Positions 10,676 to 41,447 of a stretch of DNA of 64,000 bases are shown here, piece by piece (the stretch's first letter is position 1; each line of letters opens with the position of its first letter). Source of the DNA: Bolinopsis microptera (lineage: Eukaryota; Ctenophora; Tentaculata; Lobata; Bolinopsidae). The translations under genes and the position numbers were made by a program. Location of the stretch: positions 15,146,322-15,210,321 of the forward strand of contig NC_087084.1 of the NCBI RefSeq assembly GCF_026151205.1, written 5' to 3'. The notes under the pieces were generated by a model that worked only from the letters and a program-made list of their open reading frames with translations, ran no database searches and was not told the origin of the DNA.

Positions 10676-13600
10676 GGAAAAGGCCCCAGGAGGCGGAGGA
10701 GGAGGAGGAGGACTGGGGAGGAGCAGGACTGTTGAGAACTGATGAGGAGGACTGAGGAGGAGGAGGAGGAGTAGGAGGAGGACTGAGGAGGGGAGGAGGA
10801 AGAGGACTGAGGAAGATCAGGAAGACCCAGGAGGAGGACCCAGGAGGAAGAGTAGGAGGACTCAAGAGGATGACTCAGGAGGAGGAGGACTCAGGAGGAG
10901 GACTGAGGAGGACTGAGAAGGAGGAAGACTGAAGAGTACTGAGGAGGATGGCTGAGGAGGATGGCTGAGGAGGATGACTGAGGAGGATGACTGAGAGGGA
11001 GGAGGAGGATCAGGAAGACCCAGGAGGAGGAGGAGGACCCAGAAGGAGGACCTAGGAGGAGGAGGAGGAGAACTGAGGAGGATGACTCAGGAGGAAGAGG
11101 ACTCAGGAGGAGGACTGAGGAGGACTGAGAAGGAGGAGGACTGAGGAGGATGGCTGAGGAGGATTGCTGAGGAGGATGACTGAGAGGGAGGAGGAGGAGG
11201 AGAAGGACTGAGGAGGAGAAGGACTGTTGAGGACTGATGAGGAGAACTGAGGACGAGGAGGAGGAGTAGGAGGAGGACTGAGGAGGGGAGGAGGAAGAGG
11301 ACTGGGGAGGATCAGGAAGACACAGGAGGAGGACCCAGGAGGAGGAGGACCCAGGAGGAGGAGGAGGACTGAGGAGGACTGAGGAGGAGGACTGACGATG
11401 CCTGAGAAGGAGGAGGACTGAGGAGTACTGAGGAGGATGGCTGAGGAGGATGGCTGAGGAGGATGGCTGAGGAGAATGACTGAGGAGGATGACTGAGAGG
11501 GAGGAGGAGGAGGACTCAGGAGGAGGACTCAGGAGGAGGACTCAGGAGGAAGAGGAGGAGGAGGACTCAGGAGGACTTAGGAGAAATGAGAAGGAGGACT
11601 GAGGAGAACTGAGGAGGAGGAGGAGGAGAAGGAGGGGGACTGGGAGAGGACTGAGGAGGAGGAGGACTGATGAGAAGGATGAGGAGGAGGACTGAGGAGG
11701 AGGACTGAGGACCGAGGAGGAAGAGGAGGAGGATGAAGAGGAGGAGGAGGACCCAGGAGGAGGAGGACTGAGGAGGAGGACTGAGGAGGAGGACTGAGGA
11801 TGATGGCTGAGGAGGATGACTGAGAGGGAAGAGGAGGAGGACTCAGGAGGAGGAGGAGGACTGAGAAAGACTGAGAAGGAGGAGGACTGAGGAGGAGGAG
11901 GAGAACTGAACAGGAGGAGGAGGAGGGGGACTGGGGGAGGACTGAGGAGGAGGATGGAGGACTGAGGAGAAGGATGAGGAGGAGGACTGAGGAGGACTGA
12001 GGAGGACTGAGGACTGAGGAGGAAGAGGAGGAGGATGAAGAGGAGGAGGAGGACCCAGGAGGAGGACCCAGGAGGAGGACTCAGGAGGAGGAGGAGGACT
12101 GGGGAGGAGGACTGTTAAGGACTGATGAGGAGGACTGAGGAGGAGGAGGAGGAGTAGGAGGAGGACTGAGGAGGGGAGGAGGAAGAGGACTGAGGAAGAT
12201 CAGGAAGACCCAGGAGGAGGAGGAGGAAGAGTAGGAGGAGGAAGCATCTAAATGTTATTTCCATTTTTGTCCGTTTTTGTCCGCTCTATTTTTTGTCCGT
12301 TTTGAAAATATAGGGTACCGGACAAAAAACATGATCCCCCATATAACAGCAAAAATTGAACATTTTATTTAGCAATTTAGGTGTCCATTAATGTCCGCTA
12401 ATGTCCGTATATGTCCGTCTATGTCCGCCTATGTCCGTCTATGTCCGAGGAGGAGGACCCAGGAGGAGGAGGACTGAGGAGGACTGAGGAGGAGGACTGA
12501 CGATGCCTGAGAAGGAGGAGGACTGAGGAGTACTGAGGAGGATGGCTGAGGAGGATGGCTGAGGAGGATGGCTGAGGAGAATGACTGAGGAGGATGACTG
12601 AGAGGGAGGAGGAGGAGGACTCAGGAGGAGGACTCAGGAGGAGGACTCAGGAGGAAGAGGAGGAGGAGGACTCAGGAGGACTTAGGAGAAATGAGAAGGA
12701 GGACTGAGGAGAACTGAGGAGGAGGAGGAGAAGGAGGGGGACTGGGAGAGGACTGAGGAGGAGGAGGACTGATGAGAAGGATGAGGAGGAGGACTGAGGA
12801 GGAGGACTGAGGACCGAGGAGGAAGAGGAGGAGGATGAAGAGGAGGAGGAGGACCCAGGAGGAGGAGGACTGAGGAGGAGGACTGAGGAGGAGGACTGAG
12901 GATGATGGCTGAGGAGGATGACTGAGAGGGAAGAGGAGGAGGACTCAGGAGGAGGAGGAGGACTGAGAAAGACTGAGAAGGAGGAGGACTGAGGAGGAGG
13001 AGGAGAACTGAACAGGAGGAGGAGGAGGGGGACTGGGGGAGGACTGAGGAGGAGGATGGAGGACTGAGGAGAAGGATGAGGAGGAGGACTGAGGAGGACT
13101 GAGGACTGAGGAGGAAGAGGAGGAGGATGAAGAGGAGGAGGAGGACCCAGGAGGAGGACCCAGGAGGAGGACTCAGGAGGAGGAGGAGGACTGGGGAGGA
13201 GGACTGTTAAGGACTGATGAGGAGGACTGAGAAGGAGGAGGAGGAGTAGGAGGAGGACTGAGGAGGGGAGGAGGAAGAGGACTGGGGAGGATCAGGAAGA
13301 CCCAGGAGGAGGACCCAGGAGGAGGAGGACCCAGGAGGAGGAGGAGGACTGAGGAGGACTGAGGAGGAGGACTGACGATGCCTGAGAAGGAGGAGGACTG
13401 AGGAGTACTGAGGAGGATGGCTGAGGAGGATGGCTGAGGAGGATGGCTGAGGAGAATGACTGAGGAGGATGACTGAGAGGGAGGAGGAGGAGGACTCAGG
13501 AGGAGGACTCAGGAGGAGGACTCAGGAGGAAGAGGAGGAGGAGGACTCAGGAGGACTTAGGAGAAATGAGAAGGAGGACTGAGGAGAACTGAGGAGGAGG

Positions 13601-14445
13601 AGGAGGAGAAGGAGGGGGACTGGGAGAGGACTGAGGAGGAGGAGGACTGATGAGAAGGATGAGGAGGAGGACTGAGGAGGAGGACTGAGGACCGAGGAGG
13701 AAGAGGAGGAGGATGAAGAGGAGGAGGAGGACCCAGGAGGAGGAGGACTGAGGAGGAGGACTGAGGAGGAGGACTGAGGATGATGGCTGAGGAGGATGAC
13801 TGAGAGGGAAGAGGAGGAGGACTCAGGAGGAGGAGGACTGAGAAAGACTGAGAAGGAGGAGGACTGAGGAGGAGGAGGAGAACTGAACAGGAGGAGGAGG
13901 AGGGGGACTGGGGGAGGACTGAGGAGGAGGATGGAGGACTGAGGAGAAGGATGAGGAGGAGGACTGAGGAGGACTGAGGAGGACTGAGGACTGAGGAGGA
14001 AGAGGAGGAGGATGAAGAGGAGGAGGAGGACCCAGGAGGAGGACCCAGGAGGAGGACTCAGGAGGAGGAGGAGGACTGGGGAGGAGGACTGTTAAGGACT
14101 GATGAGGAGGACTGAGAAGGAGGAGGAGGAGTAGGAGGAGGACTGAGGAGGGGAGGAGGAAGAGGACTGGGGAGGATCAGGAAGACCCAGGAGGAGGACC
14201 CAGGAGGAGGAGGACCCAGGAGGAGGAGGAGGACTGAGGAGGACTGAGGAGGAGGACTGACGATGCCTGAGAAGGAGGAGGACTGAGGAGTACTGAGGAG
14301 GATGGCTGAGGAGGATGGCTGAGGAGGATGGCTGAGGAGGATGGCTGAGGAGAATGACTGAGGAGGATGACTGAGAGGGAGGAGGAGGAGGACTCAGGAG
14401 GAGGACTCAGGAGGAGGACTCAGGAGGAGGACTCAGGAGGAAGAG
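10676..14445. repeat. GGA-rich satellite with ~880-bp higher-order repeat
   Basis: Purine-rich units (GAGGAGGACTGAGGAGGA and variants) fill 3.8 kb. A rare marker, ACTGACGATGCCTGAG, recurs at 11391, 12497, 13371 and 14256. The last two intervals are 874 and 885 bp, and the first is about 220 bp longer because of the non-satellite insert at 12243-12446. Long stretches between markers are near identical, which shows recent unequal exchange. Open frames here are composition artefacts. Confidence 0.9.
12243..12446 (+). repeat. Internal copy of the element's right-arm sequence
   Basis: This non-purine insert (AGCATCTAAATGTTATTTCC through TATGTCCGTCTATGTCCGAG) is nearly identical to 15028-15233, next to the right terminus. 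It includes the TGTCCG units. The right-arm sequence was therefore copied into the satellite, or part of the array was duplicated together with it. Confidence 0.85.
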
Positions 14446-15640: not shown

Positions 15641-16972
15641 CGTCTCTCATAATTGGGTTAGCCCGGGAAGATTCGCTGTAACGTTATACCATAAGCTTAT
15701 TAGGAGAGCTAGAGGGGGGACTGATAGTGTTTGGGGACTGTTTGGACTGCAGAGAGAGAGAGTTCATACGACAATGTTGTGCGTGTTTTCAAATATAATT
15801 GGCGGGTGTGCTGCGGAGTTAACAAGGGTTAATTTCTATAAAGATTTAAATAAAAATGGAAAGTGGTTCGAGAAGGGTGTGATGAGGGTTAATAGTCGGT
15901 GTTCAGACCTTATGATCATTGATCATGGAATGTGGTGCCTAATGGCTAATAATGACTTTATTATCCACAAGAAAGAACTGGTTATGAGACCGCGCGCGTT
16001 CAGCATACAACTTTCAGTGTACGGCTTTTCGTTTTTGATTTTACAAAGCAACTTTTAATGATTATTAATTGAATTGAAATAAATTTTCGTGCACATACAG
16101 AATGAATGGTTAATAATTTAATATATATGTAGACCAAGGTCTGTGCACGGGATGCTTCCTGGAAGAATCCAGTTCTTTTAGCGGGGCACCCTACCTAAAG
16201 CCAAATTGAGATATAATAATCATATTCCTAGAGAAATAATCAGAAATCGAATACCAATCAAATAATATGATATATAGGAGTAGTAACCATATTTACTATG
16301 CAAAATGCCCCAACCACATAGTGTAAATTAATATAGAATTCAAATTCCATATCATCATTAAACCTCAATAGTCAATATAATAGCCCAAGCAAAATTAAAT
16401 AACTTCTTATATACCTTACTGTCATACTACAAATTAATTAAACATTTGAAATCTGTTAACCAGAGAATAAATTTTTAAACCTAATGCAAGTGAAATAATT
16501 TAGATGCAATAATGAATGCCTAATGTGAGTATCATCTGTCAATGTCCTTGTAAAAAAGTCTGTAAAAGAGATATGAGTAACTAATATAGAAGAAAAAACA
16601 GGAAGTTGTCGTCTGTTGAAAAATAAATAAAATATCTAGAATATAAATTAGAATATAAAATAACATTCAGTCAATGTGTCGTCAATAAACTGTACAATTA
16701 TCAAATGTTAAAACTGGGTGATACAGTCACCAAAAATAAATACTAAGTATAATAAGTAAATAAATTAAATGTGGTCTATAAACTACCACTAGGTATAATA
16801 GGTCAATAAATTAAAAGTGGTTTATAAAACTACCACTGTGCGAACCCTTCCTCCAGTTAAAACATGTCAGTCATGTGCAAAATCAATCAAAATGGTAAGG
16901 TGGTAAAAAAAGGGAAAATCCTTTCGATACATCAATTATATATGCCTCAGATTTAAAAGAATTAGAAGATAC
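15641..16972. other. Probable retrotransposon 3' region and flank
   Basis: No convincing gene is seen. The 148-codon open frame from 15612 overlaps dispersed-repeat sequence and has no recognisable domain. The part adjoining 16972 should include the 3' UTR of the minus-strand retrotransposon. Its 3' boundary is not certain; the run of TTGAATTGAAATAAA near 16070 is one possible terminus. Confidence 0.35.
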
Positions 16973-19948
16973 TTAGTTATCGTCGACTATGATTGCAGTG
17001 TAAAATTTGTCATATGAATTGTCGACGGTATAATTAGGGTCTGTTGTTATAGATGAGAGTAGCTGTTTCTTATACGAATCACTTAAGCTTTTAACATCGG
17101 GCAGATTTCGTAGATCTGTTGGAACATTATTCCAACATTTTGCCCCCAAGTATTGAAAGTTTTTATGTGATGTTGATCTATTAACATATAAGTTGCAGCT
17201 TTCGCCGCTCCTACTACCTCCTGATATGTAACTAAATTTGTTCATAAAGTTTGTAGGACAATTGTCATGGATGATTCTAAACATATAATTTGACAGATGG
17301 AGTCGTCGTCTAAGATGGAGTGGTAACCATTTCATGTCTCTATAAACATTAAGGCTGCTCTCTGTTTGTGGAACGTTGAGAGCTATTTTGGCTACCTTTT
17401 TGTACAGAGTGTCAAGTTCAGCAAGTTTTGTCTTGCCAGCTCTACAATAGATCGTGTCTAAATAATCGAATTGTGGCAACATGAGTGCATTGGCAAACAT
17501 TTTCCTATATTTAATGGGTAGCAGTGCTTTACTTCTATACATGGCACCAATTCTCTTCATGACCTTCTTAATAATATAATCTACATGGCTTTTGAAGTTT
17601 AATTTACTATCTAGAATGAGGCCAAGATATTTTGTCTCTTTGCACTCCTTGATTGTGAAAGTTACCTCATTACATTCAATGGTTAATTCATCATGTTGAT
17701 CAACAGAGTCAAACAATAGGAATTCAGTCTTCGTTTCATTGAGTGATAATTTATTTACACTGAGCCATTTAAAGATTGTCATAAGTTCTATTTTCATGTT
17801 TATAAATGTGCTTCTGCAGGTTTGATCAAAGAATAGTGCACCATCATCTGCAAATAGAAAGGGCTTAGATAGGTTACAGGCATAAATGATGTCATTTATG
17901 AAGATACTAAATAATATAGGCCCAATGATGCTTCCTTGTGGTACACCACTCAGAACTTCTAAAAATGAGCTTATTTTGCCATTGATCCTTGTGCATTGAT
18001 ATCTACAAGATAAGAAGTTCTTAAACCAGGTTAAAGCAATGCCACCAATTCCATAATATGCCAATTTTTGAAGCAATATTTCATGATTCACTGTGTCAAA
18101 GGCCTTCTTAAGATCAAGAAAGATGATTCCTGGTTTATAAGACTTAGATTTACTCATATATATTTCGTCCATCAGATCGTACATCAAATAAGTTGTGGAG
18201 TGATTTTTCCGAAAGCCATATTGATGCCGGATGAAAAGTTTGTTCTCTTCCATGTAATCGGTGAGTTGCTTGCCGACAAAGTATTCTATAAGTTTTCCTA
18301 CAAGTGGAAGGATGGATATTGGCCTGTAATTATTAGGATCATCTTTCATTCCTGCCTTATGGATGGGAGTTACTCTAGCTTTTTTACAAAGGGTTGGTAC
18401 AACACCTGTATTAAGGCTCAAATTGACAATATGGGTCAGTGGCTCAACTATGTGTGGTACAGCTTGCTTAAGTAAAAATAGAGGCACATCGTCGTATGAG
18501 GCCTTGTCATTCTTGAGTGTTTCGACATACATTAGGATATCAGTTTCATTTATTTCTTGGAATCTATCAAATGAGATGTTAGAAGTTCTAGGAGGTAAAA
18601 AATCAGTAAAACTAACTCTTTCAATATTGGGGGCCTGATTTTGTAATCTTGATCCAACATTTGCAAAATGAAAGTTAAATAGCTCAGGATCATTCTCATT
18701 GATAGTTTGACAATTAGTTGTACCAGGGGTCATATTTGATGCCAGTTTGATAGTTTTCCATACCCCTTTAAGATCATTCTTGGCACTTTTAACTTGTAGA
18801 TCATCGATTACATTAGCCTTTTTGCAGGTTTTAGCTAATTTATTTCTAATATTTCTCTGAATCTTGTAGCAATCCCAGGCCTCATTACACTTTATACATT
18901 TGCTACATGTACCACATTTATTGCAATTTCCATTGTCCCTCTTATCCTTCTTTTTACGGAATTTCTTTAGAAGAAAATGTGTATGATTAATGGCATTTAA
19001 AAGTTCAGTAGAAGGTTTATGTATGAACTTTTCATGCCTTTCTATGGTCTTGCAAGGGAAGAAGGTTGCATATGCCTGTTCAATATGATGACAAAGGCCA
19101 GCAGTGATAGCTTCAACATCTGTACTTTCCAATAGTGGACTGTAATCAGAACAGGTATCTAGATAGTCTAAGAATTGTTTAACATTACGTTTACAATGAT
19201 TTCTAATTTCAACTTTTTCAAATTTAGGAGCTATAGGTACTTTACAATCTATCTCACACATAATAGCTTGATGATCCCCAATACGTTCATCAAGAACAGA
19301 AGATTGAACAAAATCTGCATAACAGTTAGTGAATATTACATCAATAGTAGTCTGGGTAAAATTGTCTCCACGTTTAGCAACTCTAGTTATCCCTTGAATG
19401 GTTTGAACTAGATTGTAACATCTCAAGGTCATATCTAATTTTTTGTACTGGGTGGATGAGATATTATTCTGGTCAATGTTTATATCCCCAATCCAGATAA
19501 CCTTTTTCCCGTTCAATTTTTTCATGCAAAAATGAATGTACTCAATAAAGTTATCAACACTGCAATAATTTCCAGAGCGATAGAAGCAGCAAACATTGAT
19601 CTTGCTATTCTTAAGCTTCACCCATAATGCTTCAATGTTATCAAGCTTACTATCCATAACTAATTCTGTGTAAGCTAGTTTTTTGTTTATCATTAAGCCA
19701 CAACCACCCCTAGAACTGTTTGGCCTGTCGCATCGCATAATGTTGAAGGAGGAAGGAATATTTATGGTGTCTGTGTCAATAGTATCATTAAGATTCATCT
19801 CATTTAGGGACAGTATGTCTAGCTTATGATCTCGAATGAGTTGAGTAAGTTCATTACTTTTAGCTAAATTTAGGAGACCACCTTGAATGTTACAGTGACC
19901 AATGCAAAGGTTATGAAATTTGTCAGCTGAGTTGTGAATATTTGTCAT
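16973..19948 (-). CDS. ORF2: APE-type endonuclease and reverse transcriptase
   Basis: A 991-residue polyprotein that would nick target DNA and copy the element RNA (target-primed reverse transcription). Residues 13-235 form an apurinic-like endonuclease, with N20 in GHCN, E50 in LSLNE, GDIN at 154-157 and the D225-H226 pair in GDHQA. Residues 520-760 hold the reverse transcriptase: YRPISILP, FLDLKKAFDTVNH, GVPQGSIIGP and the catalytic FADD at 699-702. The C-terminal segment has the usual AKCWNNVP motif. Odd: between the two enzymes, residues 342-360 carry six Cys at regular spacing (five CxxC steps, then Cx5C), suggesting a metal-binding knuckle. The frame is complete. The start is the ATG at 19948, which aligns with the duplicate start at 21611. 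The clade is CR1/L2/Rex-like by motif style, not by tree. Confidence 0.93.
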   Translation of the reverse strand: MTNIHNSADKFHNLCIGHCNIQGGLLNLAKSNELTQLIRDHKLDILSLNEMNLNDTIDTDTINIPSSFNIMRCDRPNSSRGGCGLMINKKLAYTELVMDSKLDNIEALWVKLKNSKINVCCFYRSGNYCSVDNFIEYIHFCMKKLNGKKVIWIGDINIDQNNISSTQYKKLDMTLRCYNLVQTIQGITRVAKRGDNFTQTTIDVIFTNCYADFVQSSVLDERIGDHQAIMCEIDCKVPIAPKFEKVEIRNHCKRNVKQFLDYLDTCSDYSPLLESTDVEAITAGLCHHIEQAYATFFPCKTIERHEKFIHKPSTELLNAINHTHFLLKKFRKKKDKRDNGNCNKCGTCSKCIKCNEAWDCYKIQRNIRNKLAKTCKKANVIDDLQVKSAKNDLKGVWKTIKLASNMTPGTTNCQTINENDPELFNFHFANVGSRLQNQAPNIERVSFTDFLPPRTSNISFDRFQEINETDILMYVETLKNDKASYDDVPLFLLKQAVPHIVEPLTHIVNLSLNTGVVPTLCKKARVTPIHKAGMKDDPNNYRPISILPLVGKLIEYFVGKQLTDYMEENKLFIRHQYGFRKNHSTTYLMYDLMDEIYMSKSKSYKPGIIFLDLKKAFDTVNHEILLQKLAYYGIGGIALTWFKNFLSCRYQCTRINGKISSFLEVLSGVPQGSIIGPILFSIFINDIIYACNLSKPFLFADDGALFFDQTCRSTFINMKIELMTIFKWLSVNKLSLNETKTEFLLFDSVDQHDELTIECNEVTFTIKECKETKYLGLILDSKLNFKSHVDYIIKKVMKRIGAMYRSKALLPIKYRKMFANALMLPQFDYLDTIYCRAGKTKLAELDTLYKKVAKIALNVPQTESSLNVYRDMKWLPLHLRRRLHLSNYMFRIIHDNCPTNFMNKFSYISGGSRSGESCNLYVNRSTSHKNFQYLGAKCWNNVPTDLRNLPDVKSLSDSYKKQLLSSITTDPNYTVDNSYDKFYTAIIVDDN

Positions 19949-20083
19949 TTCACAAAACGTGTTAGTCGTTGTGTCTGATTAAACTAAAATCAGGTGAAAA
20001 TTATCCGCCTGTAAATATTTTCAATAGAAAAGTTTTAAACTTGAAATCAAAATAAATATTCAGGTGGAAATGTCATGTCGATT

Positions 20084-21187
20084 TCAATGGTGGGCATGGT
20101 ACTTGATGTGCTTTGCTAGTTTAAAGATACCATCGCTGTTTAGATGCACATTGTCTTCCCCAAATCTACTAAAACAAGATGATTTCCTAAATCCAGATCT
20201 ATCACTAAACAAAAATCGATTAATCTCTGTGGGTATAAAGCTAACAAACGAGTATTTGGAAGGAATCTTAGATAAAAAGATATTGATGTCATTTATCACT
20301 TTATTTCTAGCAAAACTTTCTCTTGGTAAAATGTTTATGATCTTAATTTTTGCAGCTGGAGCCCACGAGTGAAGTGACTGGATCAGATTATCAATAGAGC
20401 GATTGGTGTTATCAAGGGCCTTTGCTTTTCCTGTGAACTCATCGGGTGACAATAATCTATTCCTCATGTGTCGAGGACTCTCTAGGATTAAGTCCACATC
20501 ATTAGTTCCACACATGAGTACGATGGTCTTCACATTATTTGCATCAATTGACCTCTTTCTTTCATCTGAGTGGAAGCGTTCATTGATACCGTTTGCAATG
20601 CCACTAGGATAGTGAAATACATGTGCTTCTTGATGAGCAGAGGATAGTTTTGTAGCATCTAACTTGGAGAACATGCTTGAGCTAACATACACAGCAAGGG
20701 ATTTGCTTTTGACTGAAGCAGGGGGTACGGTGCTCTTATGAGTGATTTTGTTGGGTGATGATTTCCCTTTGATTGAGGGTTCAGTTTCTCTTACAGTAAC
20801 GAAAGGCTTACTTGAGGTATCGGGTGGAGCAGACAAGGTTGCACTGCCATCAATCTGGCGCAGAGTAATGCTAATTCTCATGTCATCAGTATGGTCCTGA
20901 ATAAGGCTGTGTTCAAAGCTGTCCTGAGATTTTCTGGTCATAATCATTATGTCGCCATGGGAGAGAGTAAGATTGGCAACGTGGACTTTGCTTTTAGACC
21001 TAAAACTGAGGACTCTTGTTGCTCCTAACGATATGGTGGAAATCATGGAGCCTGGTGATATGGACCTCTCATCATCTGAATGGAATGGTATTCCTTGCTT
21101 GCCATTTTCATACTTGGTGATCATGGCGCTGTTAAATTTAAGACTTGGGAACTGTGAGCGTAAACGTTCTAAAATAGACTTTAATAA
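20084..21187 (-). pseudogene. 5'-truncated duplicate of ORF1
   Basis: This is the duplicated 3' part of ORF1, equal to residues 169-536 of the full protein at 21747-23357. It keeps the dioxygenase metal ligands and the whole SGNH domain but lacks the N-terminal zinc/coiled-coil part and the start of the AlkB domain. By chance the frame stays open upstream across the junction to an ATG at 21259, adding unrelated hydrophobic residues. It lies directly before the intact ORF2. Confidence 0.85.
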
Positions 21188-21611
21188 TGCAAAAATGAAT
21201 GTACTCAATAAAGTTATCAACACTGCAATAATTTCCAGAGCGATAGAAGCAGCAAACATTGATCTTGCTATTCTTAAGCTTCACCCATAATGCTTCAATG
21301 TTATCAAGCTTACTATCCATAACTAATTCTGTGTAAGCTAGTTTTTTGTTTATCATTAAGCCACAACCACCCCTAGAACTGTTTGGCCTGTCGCATCGCA
21401 TAATGTTGAAGGAGGAAGGAATATTTATGGTGTCTGTGTCAATAGTATCATTAAGATTCATCTCATTTAGGGACAGTATGTCTAGCTTATGATCTCGAAT
21501 GAGTTGAGTAAGTTCATTACTTTTAGCTAAATTTAGGAGACCACCTTGAATGTTACAGTGACCAATGCAAAGGTTATGAAATTTGTCAGCTGAGTTGTGA
21601 ATATTTGTCAT
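21188..21611 (-). pseudogene. Duplicate 5' fragment of ORF2
   Basis: The first 140 or so codons are identical to the start of ORF2 (endonuclease N-terminus with GHCN and LSLNE). At 21187 the sequence jumps back into ORF1 and the reading frame soon ends. It is therefore a truncated endonuclease without the GDIN and GDH catalytic motifs. Confidence 0.9.
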
Positions 21612-21746
21612 TTCACAAAACGTGTTAGTCGTTGTGTCTGATTAAACTAAAATCAGGTGAAAATTATCCGCCTGTAAATATTTTCAATAGAAAAGTTTTA
21701 AACTTGAAATCAAAATAAATATTCAGGTGGAAATGTCATGTCGATT

Positions 21747-23357
21747 TCAATGGTGGGCATGGTACTTGATGTGCTTTGCTAGTTTAAAGATACCATCGCT
21801 GTTTAGATGCACATTGTCTTCCCCAAATCTACTAAAACAAGATGATTTCCTAAATCCAGATCTATCACTAAACAAAAATCGATTAATCTCTGTGGGTATA
21901 AAGCTAACAAACGAGTATTTGGAAGGAATCTTAGATAAAAAGATATTGATGTCATTTATCACTTTATTTCTAGCAAAACTTTCTCTTGGTAAAATGTTTA
22001 TGATCTTAATTTTTGCAGCTGGAGCCCACGAGTGAAGTGACTGGATCAGATTATCAATAGAGCGATTGGTGTTATCAAGGGCCTTTGCTTTTCCTGTGAA
22101 CTCATCGGGTGACAATAATCTATTCCTCATGTGTCGAGGACTCTCTAGGATTAAGTCCACATCATTAGTTCCACACATGAGTACGATGGTCTTCACATTA
22201 TTTGCATCAATTGACCTCTTTCTTTCATCTGAGTGGAAGCGTTCATTGATACCGTTTGCAATGCCACTAGGATAGTGAAATACATGTGCTTCTTGATGAG
22301 CAGAGGATAGTTTTGTAGCATCTAACTTGGAGAACATGCTTGAGCTAACATACACAGCAAGGGATTTGCTTTTGACTGAAGCAGGGGGTACGGTGCTCTT
22401 ATGAGTGATTTTGTTGGGTGATGATTTCCCTTTGATTGAGGGTTCAGTTTCTCTTACAGTAACGAAAGGCTTACTTGAGGTATCGGGTGGAGCAGACAAG
22501 GTTGCACTGCCATCAATCTGGCGCAGAGTAATGCTAATTCTCATGTCATCAGTATGGTCCTGAATAAGGCTGTGTTCAAAGCTGTCCTGAGATTTTCTGG
22601 TCATAATCATTATGTCGCCATGGGAGAGAGTAAGATTGGCAACGTGGACTTTGCTTTTAGACCTAAAACTGAGGACTCTTGTTGCTCCTAACGATATGGT
22701 GGAAATCATGGAGCCTGGTGATATGGACCTCTCATCATCTGAATGGAATGGTATTCCTTGCTTGCCATTTTCATACTTGGTGATCATGGCGCTGTTAAAT
22801 TTAAGACTTGGGAACTGTGAGCGTAAACGTTCTAAAATAGACTTTAATAAGGGATTGTCATTTAACGGCCTTGTGTTATGGAAGCCTCCATTGTAGGCAT
22901 ATGGGAAATCCCCATAGTATGCTACAGCCCTATTGTTGAACGTTTGTGTGTATTGTGTTTCCATATCCAACTTGAGAGTATCGACAAACCTGAATACACC
23001 TCGACTCAAATCATGATATGGATTGATGGACTTACCCACAACGTTAACACTGGTTGAAGATTGTTTGTTAACATCAGAAGAATTCACAAGAGATGGGTTG
23101 CTATTAAGTTCAGTCACACTGCTAACTTCACAGTTTTGAGTTTCTGATTCATGTTCAGAGATAAGAACATTGTCCCCGCAAGAGAATGGAACCGCAATTT
23201 TGTCATGGCCTGAGCCTTGGGTAAGTTTGGTTAGACGAGCAATTTGTCTCCTCAAATTGTCGTTTTCAAGACTTAGTGATACACAGGTAGAACATTTTGC
23301 TTTTGCACTGTTAGGTCTGTCACGAAGGCTGTAATTTCTGATTGGGATACCGGACAT
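21747..23357 (-). CDS. ORF1: AlkB-like 2OG-Fe(II) oxygenase fused to SGNH esterase
   Basis: A 536-residue protein preceding ORF2. Residues 1-50 have a CSTC pair and a short heptad-like helix (LSLENDNLRRQIARL), likely for multimerisation. Residues about 119-280 match the AlkB pattern: Y195-E-N-G, then the iron ligands H205 and D207 in FHSDDE, ISLGATRVLSF, a LSHGDIMIM strand, H262 as third ligand, and R273/R279 in RISITLR, positions that normally bind 2-oxoglutarate. After a basic Ser/Pro linker, residues 330-536 form an SGNH hydrolase: VSSSM near 337-341 as candidate nucleophile block, GTND at 396-399, and the D514-x-x-H517 dyad. Esterase-type ORF1 proteins are known in CR1/L2-like elements; the AlkB domain is the unusual part. 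It could repair alkylated element RNA, but that is inference. Confidence 0.88.
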   Translation of the reverse strand: MSGIPIRNYSLRDRPNSAKAKCSTCVSLSLENDNLRRQIARLTKLTQGSGHDKIAVPFSCGDNVLISEHESETQNCEVSSVTELNSNPSLVNSSDVNKQSSTSVNVVGKSINPYHDLSRGVFRFVDTLKLDMETQYTQTFNNRAVAYYGDFPYAYNGGFHNTRPLNDNPLLKSILERLRSQFPSLKFNSAMITKYENGKQGIPFHSDDERSISPGSMISTISLGATRVLSFRSKSKVHVANLTLSHGDIMIMTRKSQDSFEHSLIQDHTDDMRISITLRQIDGSATLSAPPDTSSKPFVTVRETEPSIKGKSSPNKITHKSTVPPASVKSKSLAVYVSSSMFSKLDATKLSSAHQEAHVFHYPSGIANGINERFHSDERKRSIDANNVKTIVLMCGTNDVDLILESPRHMRNRLLSPDEFTGKAKALDNTNRSIDNLIQSLHSWAPAAKIKIINILPRESFARNKVINDINIFLSKIPSKYSFVSFIPTEINRFLFSDRSGFRKSSCFSRFGEDNVHLNSDGIFKLAKHIKYHAHH

Positions 23358-24186
23358 AGTTCAAATAAACACAATAATGCAAAGAATTCAGGATAGAGTC
23401 TAAAACCGATGCTACTGTTTATAGTTATTTAGTTGTTGATTACAGTACCTTTGCAGCAATTCAGAAGATGGGAATGAGTGGTGTCTGATATTCTTTAGGT
23501 GATAGATGGGTGATAGGTGATAGATGGGAGTTAACAGCTCTTAAAAACGATGTCTGATAGTCTTTAGGATGTCTTTTTTTTATTGAAATCTTTCAAATCA
23601 GTCAATTACATACAAGTTTACACAATGAATTAGTTAAATATAATATTGTCCTCTAAGCATGGATTGTCAAAGTTGAAATTGTCTCGGACAAAATGTATGT
23701 AACCAAAGGACCTGAGGGTCACCAAAACACAGATATTGAGTGCAAATGCAGCTCCTGCACATTTACTTTAAAATAAACTATCATGCAACAACCATTTACA
23801 TCGACATACAACCTGTAATGGTTGCTACATTTGATTGAGGTGTTAATTCCCACTAGGGGTCCTCAATAAATGTATTTAATTGTAGTTGTGAAAATAGTTT
23901 AAAACTCAATGGAATTATCGGATATTTATAATTCAATATGTATTGATTCTTCTGTGGAGCATACGCAGTGCTGCTAGCATGATAAGCATTTACTCCATTC
24001 GAGTATATTTTAAGAGTATGCTTGATGCAGATGCCTATGCAGAAGCAATTCATATATATAACATGTTATCAAAAATTCAAACAATATACACATAATATAG
24101 CAGTGACCCTATATACAAATTCAATACGAAATTCAATAAAAAATATTCATATATATAACTAGCACAAACTTTAGATCAGATATCCT
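23358..24186. other. Retrotransposon 5' region and AT-rich flank
   Basis: Upstream of ORF1 the motif GATGTCTGATAGTCTTTAGG occurs in two variants (about 23486-23505 and 23549-23568), probably 5' UTR sequence. On the minus strand TTTCAATAAA followed by A-run lies at 23574-23590, resembling the poly(A) end of another insert. No gene is visible. Confidence 0.4.
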
Positions 24187-26522: not shown

Positions 26523-28199
26523 TCCTGTTTATACAACAACATTTATTTAGAACAACAATTCCAAGATTCTCCTAACTCAGATGAATTTGTTCCTCTTTCT
26601 AATAGCCCAAAGATAGTACAATTCCGTCATGTGTCTGATGAAGAACTAGTAAGCATCATAAAGAATATGTCTAACAAATTCTGTGATCTTGACCCCATAC
26701 CTACAAAGATTCTCATCAAGTGTCTCCCAGAACTCCTTCCTCTGATCTCATTTATAGTCAATGAATCATTAGTTAAAGGTGAGTTTCCTATAAAACTTAA
26801 GGAGGCTCTCATTCGTCCAAGTTTGAAGAAACGTGGCCTTGACGGTGAATCTCTATCTAACTATAGGCCTATTAGCAATCTCTCCTTCTTGTCAAAAATC
26901 ATTGAGAAGTGTGTATCTATACAGCTCACCAGTTATCTTGAGGATAACAACTTGCTTTCTAAAGTTCAGTCCGGCTATAGGAAGTTTCATAGCTGTGAAA
27001 CTGCAACAACCAGAATCCATAACGACATCTTGATAACTATTGACAAGAAAACTAAAGTTGTTCTTTTACTTCTAGATTTGAGTGCTGCCTTTGATACTGT
27101 CAATCACCCAAGATTAATCAAGAAGCTAAGATCTGCTTATGGCATTACAGGCATTGCTCTTACATGGATCAGGTCCTACTTGGCTAACCGTTCATTTTGT
27201 GTCAAAGTCAAGGATTCGTCTTCCTCATCAACTGTTCTTGAGATAGGTGTGCCACAAGGTTCAATCCTTGGCCCCCTGCTATTCATATTGTACACCAAAG
27301 ATCTTGAGAACATTGCAAGTATGCATGGGTGCTGTATTCATTTGTATGCTGATGACACCCAGCTGTATTTCACTCTTGATTCTGATGACCCATCACAGCT
27401 AGAGCACAATATGGAACACTGTATGTCTGATATCAAGAAATGGATGACAAACAATTTCCTTCAACTGAATTCTTCTAAGACTGAAGTCATCGTTATATCC
27501 TCTAAATTTGACTCAAAAAATATTCCAGCCTCTCTACAGATTGTTAAGGATCAAGAGCCACATGTTGTTAGTGGAACTGTGAAGAGTCTTGGGCTGTATT
27601 TGGACAGTTATCTTTCAATGAGTGATCAGATTACGTCAGTGGTTCAAGCATGTAATATTCAGATCAGAAATTTGTGGTTTATTGCATCAAAACTGTCTTT
27701 TAACCTTAAGATTCAGCTTGTTCATGCTCTAGTACTCTCTAGAATTGATTATTGCAATAGCGTATATTTTGGACTGAGCTCTTATGATTTAAGTCGTTTA
27801 CAGAAGGTGCAAAATTCTGCTGTAAGATTTATTTTCGAGAGAGGAAGAAAGGCACACACTACTCCACTACTTAAGAAAGTTCATTTTCTACCAGTTAGAT
27901 TTAGAATGGATTTTAAGATTGCCCTACTTGCCTACAAGTGTTTAAATAATATAGCTCCTCCTTACTTAAAAGAGTTGATATCTCCTAGGCAGCAAAGTTT
28001 TAAAAATGTACGTCTTGATAATGATTGTTTTTACCTTAGTTTTCCGCCCTCTCCTAACTATGTAAACACAGAGAAAGCTTTTAGTCACTGTGCAGTTAAA
28101 GTATTTAATTCCTTGCCATACGACATAAGATCAGCTGAGTCAGTTACATCTTTCAAGACCAAACTTAAAACATACTTCTTTTCTCTAGCATTTGATTGA
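26523..28199 (+). CDS. Reverse transcriptase of truncated CR1/L2-like element
   Basis: An open frame continues upstream of the first possible start at 26631, so the protein is N-terminally truncated. The visible order is KFCDLDPIPTKIL (CR1/L2 signature before the RT), LSNYRPISNLSFLSKIIEK, LLDLSAAFDTVNH, GVPQGSILGPLLF, the catalytic YADDTQLY, then thumb and C-terminal helices ending FKTKLKTYFFSLAFD. No frameshift or stop interrupts about 550 codons, so the insertion is fairly young although it cannot move on its own. It differs from the element at 16-23 kb (FADDG instead of YADDT, and different flanking motifs). Confidence 0.9.
   Translation, partial: SCLYNNIYLEQQFQDSPNSDEFVPLSNSPKIVQFRHVSDEELVSIIKNMSNKFCDLDPIPTKILIKCLPELLPLISFIVNESLVKGEFPIKLKEALIRPSLKKRGLDGESLSNYRPISNLSFLSKIIEKCVSIQLTSYLEDNNLLSKVQSGYRKFHSCETATTRIHNDILITIDKKTKVVLLLLDLSAAFDTVNHPRLIKKLRSAYGITGIALTWIRSYLANRSFCVKVKDSSSSSTVLEIGVPQGSILGPLLFILYTKDLENIASMHGCCIHLYADDTQLYFTLDSDDPSQLEHNMEHCMSDIKKWMTNNFLQLNSSKTEVIVISSKFDSKNIPASLQIVKDQEPHVVSGTVKSLGLYLDSYLSMSDQITSVVQACNIQIRNLWFIASKLSFNLKIQLVHALVLSRIDYCNSVYFGLSSYDLSRLQKVQNSAVRFIFERGRKAHTTPLLKKVHFLPVRFRMDFKIALLAYKCLNNIAPPYLKELISPRQQSFKNVRLDNDCFYLSFPPSPNYVNTEKAFSHCAVKVFNSLPYDIRSAESVTSFKTKLKTYFFSLAFD

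Positions 28200-33830: not shown

Positions 33831-41447
<7,617 letters not shown>

Follow-up and report, generated by a model that had tools for sequence, protein, structure and literature searches.

Does a retrotransposon of the ctenophore Bolinopsis microptera carry an AlkB-like demethylase of its own, and what would such an enzyme do for a mobile element? The question was raised by a sequence-only reading of a 64,000-nt stretch of the genome (contig NC_087084.1, positions 15,146,322 to 15,210,321; hereafter the window), in which one open frame was proposed to be a retrotransposon ORF1 that fuses an AlkB-type 2OG-Fe(II) dioxygenase to an SGNH esterase and is followed by an ORF2 with endonuclease (EN) and reverse transcriptase (RT) domains.

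Architecture of ORF1 and of the element

The uninterrupted 536-codon frame at 21747-23357 is real, and its strand, left unstated in the earlier reading, is the minus one; the plus strand across the same interval is stop-rich and holds no open frame. The features of ORF1 are the following:

21747..23357, minus strand: ORF1, 536 aa, with coiled-coil-like helix, AlkB and SGNH domains (ORF reading, Pfam, AlphaFold2 model)
23214..23291, minus strand: predicted N-terminal helix, residues 23-48, coiled-coil-like (AlphaFold2, low to modest pLDDT)
22515..22934, minus strand: AlkB-type 2OG-Fe(II) dioxygenase domain, residues 142-281 (Pfam, phmmer, model, Foldseek)
22737..22745, minus strand: H205-x-D207, iron ligands (invariant in the alignment)
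22572..22574, minus strand: H262, distal iron ligand (invariant in the alignment)
22521..22541, minus strand: R273-x-S-x-T-x-R279, 2OG-binding arginines, with Ser where ALKBH2/3 have Asn (alignments)
21750..22370, minus strand: SGNH/GDSL esterase-like domain, residues 330-536 (Pfam, alignment, 9-domain profile)

The five residues to which the reading had pointed (H205, D207, H262, R273 and R279) stand where it placed them and are invariant in the alignments. Three approaches agree on the AlkB identity: Pfam, which returned the expected 2OG-FeII_Oxy_2 (PF13532) at residues 152-279 (E 4.1e-18, 66.7 bits vs. a curated cut-off of 31.2), a phmmer search of ORF1 against the PDB, which found human ALKBH3 (E 1.3e-13) and also ALKBH2, and an AlphaFold2 model of ORF1 built on a 15-row alignment. 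The whole chain was modelled with a mean pLDDT of 67 and a pTM of 0.44, residues 121-280 with a pLDDT of 72-95 by blocks of ten, and the SGNH residues 331-536 mostly with 58-95 (one block 43). Residues ~120-285 were modelled confidently as a double-stranded beta-helix, for which the best PDB matches in Foldseek were ABH2 (1.6e-15), ALKBH3 (2.4e-13), ALKBH6 (2e-10), AlkB (6e-10), and ALKBH5 (7e-9). Residues 115-285, for which a fold check had been suggested, fall within this fold, and any other fold for them is ruled out by the model together with Foldseek; a chance AlkB match is likewise ruled out by the Pfam E-value (4e-18), the fold model, and the conservation described below. In BFVD, the model matched polyproteins of RNA viruses and AlkBs of giant viruses; the best of these reached 2e-17, but the alignments were long and the rmsd large.

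For the esterase half of the proposal, Pfam alone is weak (Lipase_GDSL_2 at residues 382-522, E 0.018, below the cut-off), whereas a profile of nine SGNH domains matches solved SGNH hydrolases, including platelet-activating-factor acetylhydrolase-like enzymes, as well as the 'ORF1-encoded protein' 4c1b (E 6e-8), which we take to be the ZfL2-1 esterase. Block III with its Asn and block V with its His (G67, N69, H188) are invariant in all nine domains. By eye, block I of the window family reads SSSM instead of GDS (GDSN or HDS in other families) and the Gly column of block II is occupied by Ser (Gly in family B), which makes esterase catalysis in the window family uncertain.

The element that holds this frame is a LINE copy with an internal duplication:

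16068..23906, minus strand: whole LINE copy, family A, ~7.8 kb (3' end by blastn, 5' limit by eye)
16973..19948, minus strand: ORF2, 991 aa, APE-like endonuclease and reverse transcriptase (Exo_endo_phos and RVT_1 by Pfam)
21187..22850, minus strand: first copy of a 1664-bp exact tandem duplication, covering the C-terminal two thirds of ORF1 and the ORF2 start
19524..21187, minus strand: second copy of the 1664-bp duplication, containing a truncated ORF1 (frame 20084-21259)
21138..21641, minus strand: truncated start of ORF2, an EN fragment that results from the duplication

The window copy measures ~7.8 kb vs. ~5.98 kb for an ordinary family-A unit (5' UTR ~350 nt, 3' UTR ~0.9 kb, end near TTTATTTCAATCAA) owing to the duplication and a longer 5' UTR. 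The EN-RT ORF2 that had been read after ORF1 is thus present, but it does not directly adjoin ORF1 in this copy, because the duplication inserts a truncated EN and a truncated second ORF1 between them; outside the window copy, ORF2 follows ORF1 after ~0.1 kb in family A. The duplication could stem from a switch of template while the RNA was being reverse-transcribed.

Copies, active site, and selection

At least 85 genome matches to ORF1 were found by similarity search. Family A comprises at least 16 matches spanning residues 1-536 (97-100% identity, stop-free), and family B at least 22 matches spanning residues 1/5-536 (65-67% identity, 21 of the 22 stop-free). Sixteen family-A loci were fetched, of which 12 passed a filter for an exact 536-aa ORF1, while the four filtered out are also open and differ in length or, in the case of L020, only in the last residues; nine of the 16 hold the full 1001-codon ORF2 frame. 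The 3' homology ends within ~20 nt of one point in 14 of the 15 other fetched copies (blastn), the fetched stretch of the remaining one, L016, stopping before that point. Flanks differ among the 13 family-A copies compared, and no clear long target-site duplications were seen at the copies examined. A single domesticated gene is ruled out, since the copies are many, are accompanied by ORF2, and have different flanks.

An ORF1 with an esterase domain, an ORF2 with EN-RT and multiple differently flanked copies are thus all found here, as in the esterase-ORF1 LINEs (CR1/L2/RTEX; ZfL2-1), which according to PMC3905857 likewise have two ORFs, with a helix at the N-terminus and an SGNH domain at the C-terminus of ORF1, and EN-RT in ORF2. 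The window ORF1 differs in the AlkB domain added between helix and esterase, and the likeness is one of ORF layout and SGNH profile.

Both iron-binding His, the Asp, both Arg, a Tyr, and several other residues are invariant in 15 of 15 ORF1s or ORF1 fragments, and none of the 12 filtered family-A copies departs from the five iron-ligand and 2OG-arginine residues of AlkB; these loci were drawn from profile or similarity matches, so that decayed copies are under-sampled. The same iron and 2OG residues, a Tyr, and several others are invariant in 18 of 18 aligned transposon AlkB domains, which were excised by a pattern requiring these motifs (36 loci tried, with only three host genes failing). The H-x-D...H ligands, whose loss in other copies would have counted against the earlier proposal, are therefore kept in every one of these sequences and, by eye, in three further loci (L071-L073). 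Family B aside, the aligned domains are only 22-40% identical to that of the window. AlkB might nonetheless persist because it helps ORF1p to bind nucleic acid or to assemble, with catalysis incidental or gone; if, as PMC3905857 has it, the esterase-type ORF1s of RepBase are without a structured RNA-binding domain, such an element would profit from a new fold that binds RNA. Binding alone, however, does not explain why iron ligands and 2OG arginines stay invariant across domains so diverged, and we consider this reading quite unlikely.

All 18 aligned transposon domains carry R-x-S-x-T-x-R, and the ALKBH2/3 signature R-x-N-x-T-x-R is absent from all 18, whereas the host genes L036 and L038 and human ALKBH2/3 have R-x-N; two diverged transposon AlkBs (L072, L073) have R-x-S-x-S-x-R. 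With R-x-S in place of R-x-N, the handling of substrate or cofactor may differ. The shared motif fits common descent of the transposon domains, but an ALKBH8-like host locus (L060) likewise has Ser, so the Ser alone is no proof of it.

The dN/dS comparison that the sequence-only reading had suggested was made between families A and B and places AlkB under constraint (85.7% aa identity, dS 0.96, dN/dS 0.10). In the same pair, the SGNH domain is 66.2% and the N-terminal 114 residues are 43.9% identical, both with saturated dS, and the linker is 56% identical (dN/dS 0.38). Other pairs gave dN/dS values of 0.076 (777/843), 0.18 (L045/L047, Helitron-type), 0.19 (L029/L039), and 0.215 (586/692), and three further pairings or regions were saturated. 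Within the 12 family-A copies, eight synonymous and eight nonsynonymous variants were counted in AlkB (pN/pS 0.27), five and 12 in SGNH (0.64), five and five in the N-terminus, and none and seven in the linker; the SGNH ratio hints at weaker constraint in that domain, with the numbers being small. At the level of codons, strong purifying selection on AlkB is shown.

The ORF2s of families A and B are 97.9% identical (dS 0.054, two copies compared), and the number of matches per 100 nt, 36-85 up to the ORF2 start, rises to 94-100 beyond it (one window 88) until the end of the fetched stretch, the change falling within the first ~200 nt of ORF2. Since the ORF1s have diverged while the ORF2s are ~98% identical, ORF1s were exchanged between A and B, and on this comparison the exchanged part is the 5' half (5' UTR and ORF1) on one ORF2 backbone. 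In a second, weaker case, the 644 ORF1 is 58% identical to 611 and the ORF2 starts are 92% identical over 53 residues; here too AlkB is the best conserved part (67.6%, vs. 60.6% for the N-terminus and 52.9% for SGNH).

Spread among LINE lineages and Helitron-like elements

A profile search of the B. microptera genome gave at least 151 PF13532 matches. That 151 is a lower bound follows from a further family with frames of ~630 aa, whose AlkB is 49-53% identical to that of the 644 query: it has at least 29 matches, and only one of them was found among the PF13532 matches listed. Four host-like ALKBH loci were recognised: L036, which is ALKBH2 (2e-59 to human ABH2), L038, which is ALKBH3-like, and, by eye, the ALKBH3-like L037 and the ALKBH8-like L060. 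The animal has ALKBH2/3-like genes of its own in L036-L038. No relatives were found among viral contigs by profile search.

Seven representative loci (L029-L035) were read at length. L029, L031, L032, and L034 hold AlkB together with Lipase_GDSL_2 (E-values from 8e-6 to 1e-3, none of which reaches the curated cut-off), while in L030 and L033 AlkB was found by Pfam and the SGNH blocks by eye and in the 9-domain alignment only; L033 and L034 also gave weak PHD-like matches. L035 is of another kind, with Lipase_GDSL_2 (8e-6, below cut-off), AlkB, DUF6570, and Helitron_like_N (PF14214, E 3e-22) in one open stretch of 2106 aa, where SGNH precedes AlkB, the reverse of the order in the LINE ORF1s. 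Hallmarks of Helitrons are a PIF1 helicase and TC...CTRR termini; L035 is termed Helitron-like by its Rep-like domain, in a 9.4-kb region. In all nine element types for which the reading extended far enough (those of the window, L025, and L029-L035), AlkB and SGNH share one frame as if they served one pathway, SGNH having been recognised by eye in L030 and L033. The target could accordingly be something other than nucleic acid, e.g., a host defence protein, a histone, or a lipid intermediate handled jointly with the esterase, but the nearest relatives of the domain are nucleic-acid repair enzymes and we hold such a target to be highly unlikely.

Of the 41 Helitron_like_N matches listed (41 being matches, not elements), six coincide with an AlkB match in position and in length of frame, and another two have AlkB within ~4 kb. 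The other 33 have no AlkB nearby among the matches listed, for which reason AlkB is probably dispensable to some Helitrons and not needed by every one.

The genome also holds at least 150 Lipase_GDSL_2 matches, roughly half of those listed in frames of 454-533 aa; 12 lie, by eye, within ~2 kb of a listed PF13532 match. That AlkB-free esterase ORF1s are common here was considered and ruled out, as both families opened (L072, 478 aa; L073, 521 aa) carry a diverged AlkB in the esterase frame, with HNDDE or HKDDE, a distal His, and RYSLSFR. In a test confined to these two sequences, the profile of the 18 other AlkBs gave scores of 73.0 (L072) and 70.4 bits (L073). By Pfam, L072 shows only 2OG-FeII_Oxy (9e-4, below cut-off), and neither family is among the PF13532 matches listed. 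The AlkB total may therefore be much larger than 151. Among the families opened, the 485, 502, 513, 455, and 426 aa families being left out, there was no esterase ORF1 family without AlkB.

In the RT tree (8 rows), the window, family B, and 611 group at 99/99, and 707 joins 676 (both PHD-like) at 100/99; 777 stands alone on a long branch (3.4), the program warning of long-branch joins, and two LINEs of unexamined ORF1 fall between the groups. The EN tree (9 rows) recovers the same two groupings at 99/99 and unites 478 with 521 (L069, L070) at 94/93, while the partial 593 is unplaced. Judged from these trees, AlkB-bearing LINEs belong to at least three deep RT lineages and a further EN group. 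AlkB and SGNH were read together in as many, and in that EN group, SGNH being recognised by eye only in one of the RT lineages.

The AlkB tree comprised 36 rows, L059 and L066 having been dropped and L071-L073 left out. Five Helitron-type rows form one clade at 100/100, with L045 so labelled by similarity alone; 777/843 tentatively joins host and human ALKBH2/3 at 86/73, and the other families lie outside with weak support. Neither a single clade of all LINE rows (p-AU 0.158) nor one of all 30 transposon rows (p-AU 0.179) is rejected, and for the two PHD-like families the disagreement between AlkB and RT trees is not significant (p-AU 0.108). The unrejected single transposon clade would suit a mere passenger, i.e., a host ALKBH captured once and spread by ORF1 recombination without selective value, all the more as ORF1s are exchanged between ORF2 backbones and a domain can ride on a successful ORF1. 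That account is already disfavoured, given dN/dS values of 0.08-0.22 in measurable pairs, an AlkB conserved above the rest of ORF1, and the occurrence of AlkB in both LINEs and Helitron-like elements with opposite domain order; we rank it as the least probable of the readings considered.

Kinship of the domain and its possible role

A profile of the 18 transposon AlkB domains matches ALKBH3 (7e-28), ALKBH2 (1e-23), E. coli AlkB (8e-11), and ALKBH8 (2e-10), and more weakly a 6mA demethylase (5e-4), ALKBH1 (0.016), and ALKBH5 (0.13). By this profile the transposon domains are much closer to ALKBH3/2 than to ALKBH5, which favours ALKBH2/3-type repair demethylation over m6A/6mA erasing, although kinship alone does not fix the substrate. 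Human ALKBH3 and ALKBH2, the best matches by both profile and fold, have the same fold, H-x-D...H and R-x5-R; the transposon domain differs in being mobile, multicopy, and joined to SGNH, and in having R-x-S instead of R-x-N. AlkB domains are also known from self-replicating plant RNA viruses (Closteroviridae, Betaflexiviridae), in whose polyproteins Foldseek matches were found; the elements described here are DNA-integrated animal transposons, and the likeness is one of fold.

The titles and abstract openings listed in searches of the open-access PMC literature (subscription papers, preprints, and Repbase being outside this scope) contained no report of AlkB in a LINE ORF1 or a Helitron, and the report of AlkB in a transposon found there is that of the Phalaenopsis Ty3/Gypsy elements, described in the available text of PMC9289625 as carrying AlkB in a separate ORF, an ALKBH5-like m6A eraser. 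Those elements are alike in being retrotransposons with an AlkB of their own and an intact active site. They are LTR elements with a separate ORF and no esterase mentioned in that text, whereas here the domain lies in LINE ORF1s or Helitron-like frames, is ALKBH3/2-like, and is joined to SGNH; a LINE EN-RT and an ALKBH5 match of only 0.13 set the present elements apart from the orchid type, with its Gag-Pol LTR structure and ALKBH5-like domain. Sharing of SGNH among LINEs, Helitrons, and other elements has precedents in the Texim SGNH-Helitron of fish (PMC4021074) and the GDSL ORFs of bdelloid retroelements (PMC5408684), the main texts of which do not contain the word AlkB.

The orchid precedent, with m6A demethylation in vitro (PMC9289625, available text), lends some weight to the view that AlkB is an epigenetic or epitranscriptomic eraser, one that would let the element escape silencing by taking off m6A or 6mA written by the host on element RNA or DNA, respectively. 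Such an escape directly benefits a transposon. Adenine methylation in ctenophores is part of the background to this view, and the literature matches listed included no ctenophore paper on it. Against erasing stand the profile scores, far from ALKBH5 and ALKBH1, weakly near the 6mA demethylase, and close to ALKBH3/2; Helitrons, moreover, have no RNA genome in need of protection, though 6mA could be present in their DNA. We regard an eraser role as unlikely, if still deserving attention.

The explanation to which we give roughly an even chance is that the window holds a recently active LINE, in whose ORF1 an AlkB-type demethylase, set between coiled coil and SGNH, clears m1A/m3C-type lesions from single-stranded intermediates. 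ORF1p would coat the RNA of the element that encodes it, and the ALKBH3-like domain would oxidatively strip Watson-Crick-face methyl lesions (m1A, m3C) that would otherwise stop the reverse transcriptase; alternatively, it would clear lesions from the single-stranded DNA that target-primed reverse transcription produces. The corresponding target in Helitrons would be the single-stranded intermediate of rolling-circle replication. ALKBH3 and AlkB prefer single-stranded nucleic acid, which would be the substrate common to LINEs and Helitrons. The esterase may act separately, with lipid or membrane as one conceivable target by analogy with the proposal for ZfL2-1.

Somewhat more tentatively, at a little under even chances, we propose that LINEs of several lineages and Helitron-like elements of this ctenophore share an AlkB-plus-esterase module by which alkyl lesions are kept off the single-stranded intermediates of replication. 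The module would either have arisen repeatedly, with its two domains in opposite order, or have passed from one class to the other. Among LINE backbones it would move via ORF1 exchange, and it is perhaps typical, not exceptional, of this animal's esterase ORF1s.

AlkB domains have been amplified in this genome far beyond the four recognised host-like ALKBH loci. If the proposed role is true, transposons can carry with them an enzyme for nucleic-acid repair or demethylation, and alkyl lesions or methyl marks would then be a selective barrier to transposition. It would also give a testable rationale for the poorly understood ORF1 proteins, as both the methylation of element RNA or DNA and the activity of ORF1p can be measured.

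The LINE copy and its surroundings in the window

The family-A LINE copy, whose ORF1 joins an AlkB domain to an SGNH domain, contained an exact tandem duplication of 1664 bp, which probably originated through a template switch or a recent rearrangement. Its 5' UTR was longer than in most copies, and two types of 5' end sequence were present among family-A copies. Other features of the window were a second LINE reverse transcriptase (RT) frame (RVT_1, 1.2e-34), sharing at most 30% identity with the other RTs compared, a long simple repeat, and low-complexity frames that probably represent a long tandem-repeat array.

19524-22850, tandem duplication within the LINE copy
23576-23906, 5' UTR of the LINE copy
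26523-28199 (+), second LINE RT frame
36702-37536, simple repeat that gives RE and SL runs when its two strands are translated
10891-14091 (-), Ser/Pro-rich frames recurring near-identically

Helitron-type locus and glutamate-receptor ligand-domain matches

A 2A-like ribosome-skipping motif, DVETNPGP, was located at L035:2840 (+), within a frame of 167 aa lying just upstream of the giant SGNH-AlkB frame of this Helitron-type locus, and was the sole match to D.E.NPGP among the window and the loci searched. Elsewhere in the genome, 32 glutamate-receptor ligand-domain matches were found on contigs C3, C6, and C12, several of them within open frames of > 900 codons and some in clusters.

Further AlkB families in the genome

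An additional AlkB+SGNH family of ~630-aa frames (29 AlkB matches; e.g., C10:656113 (+)) was nearly missing among the PF13532 matches listed; in one member (L071), the AlkB part carried HSDSE and RISITLR. The AlkB domains of two esterase ORF1 families, represented by L072 (478 aa) and L073 (521 aa), were too divergent to be reached by the PF13532 search, and therefore the genome likely harbors additional hidden AlkB families.
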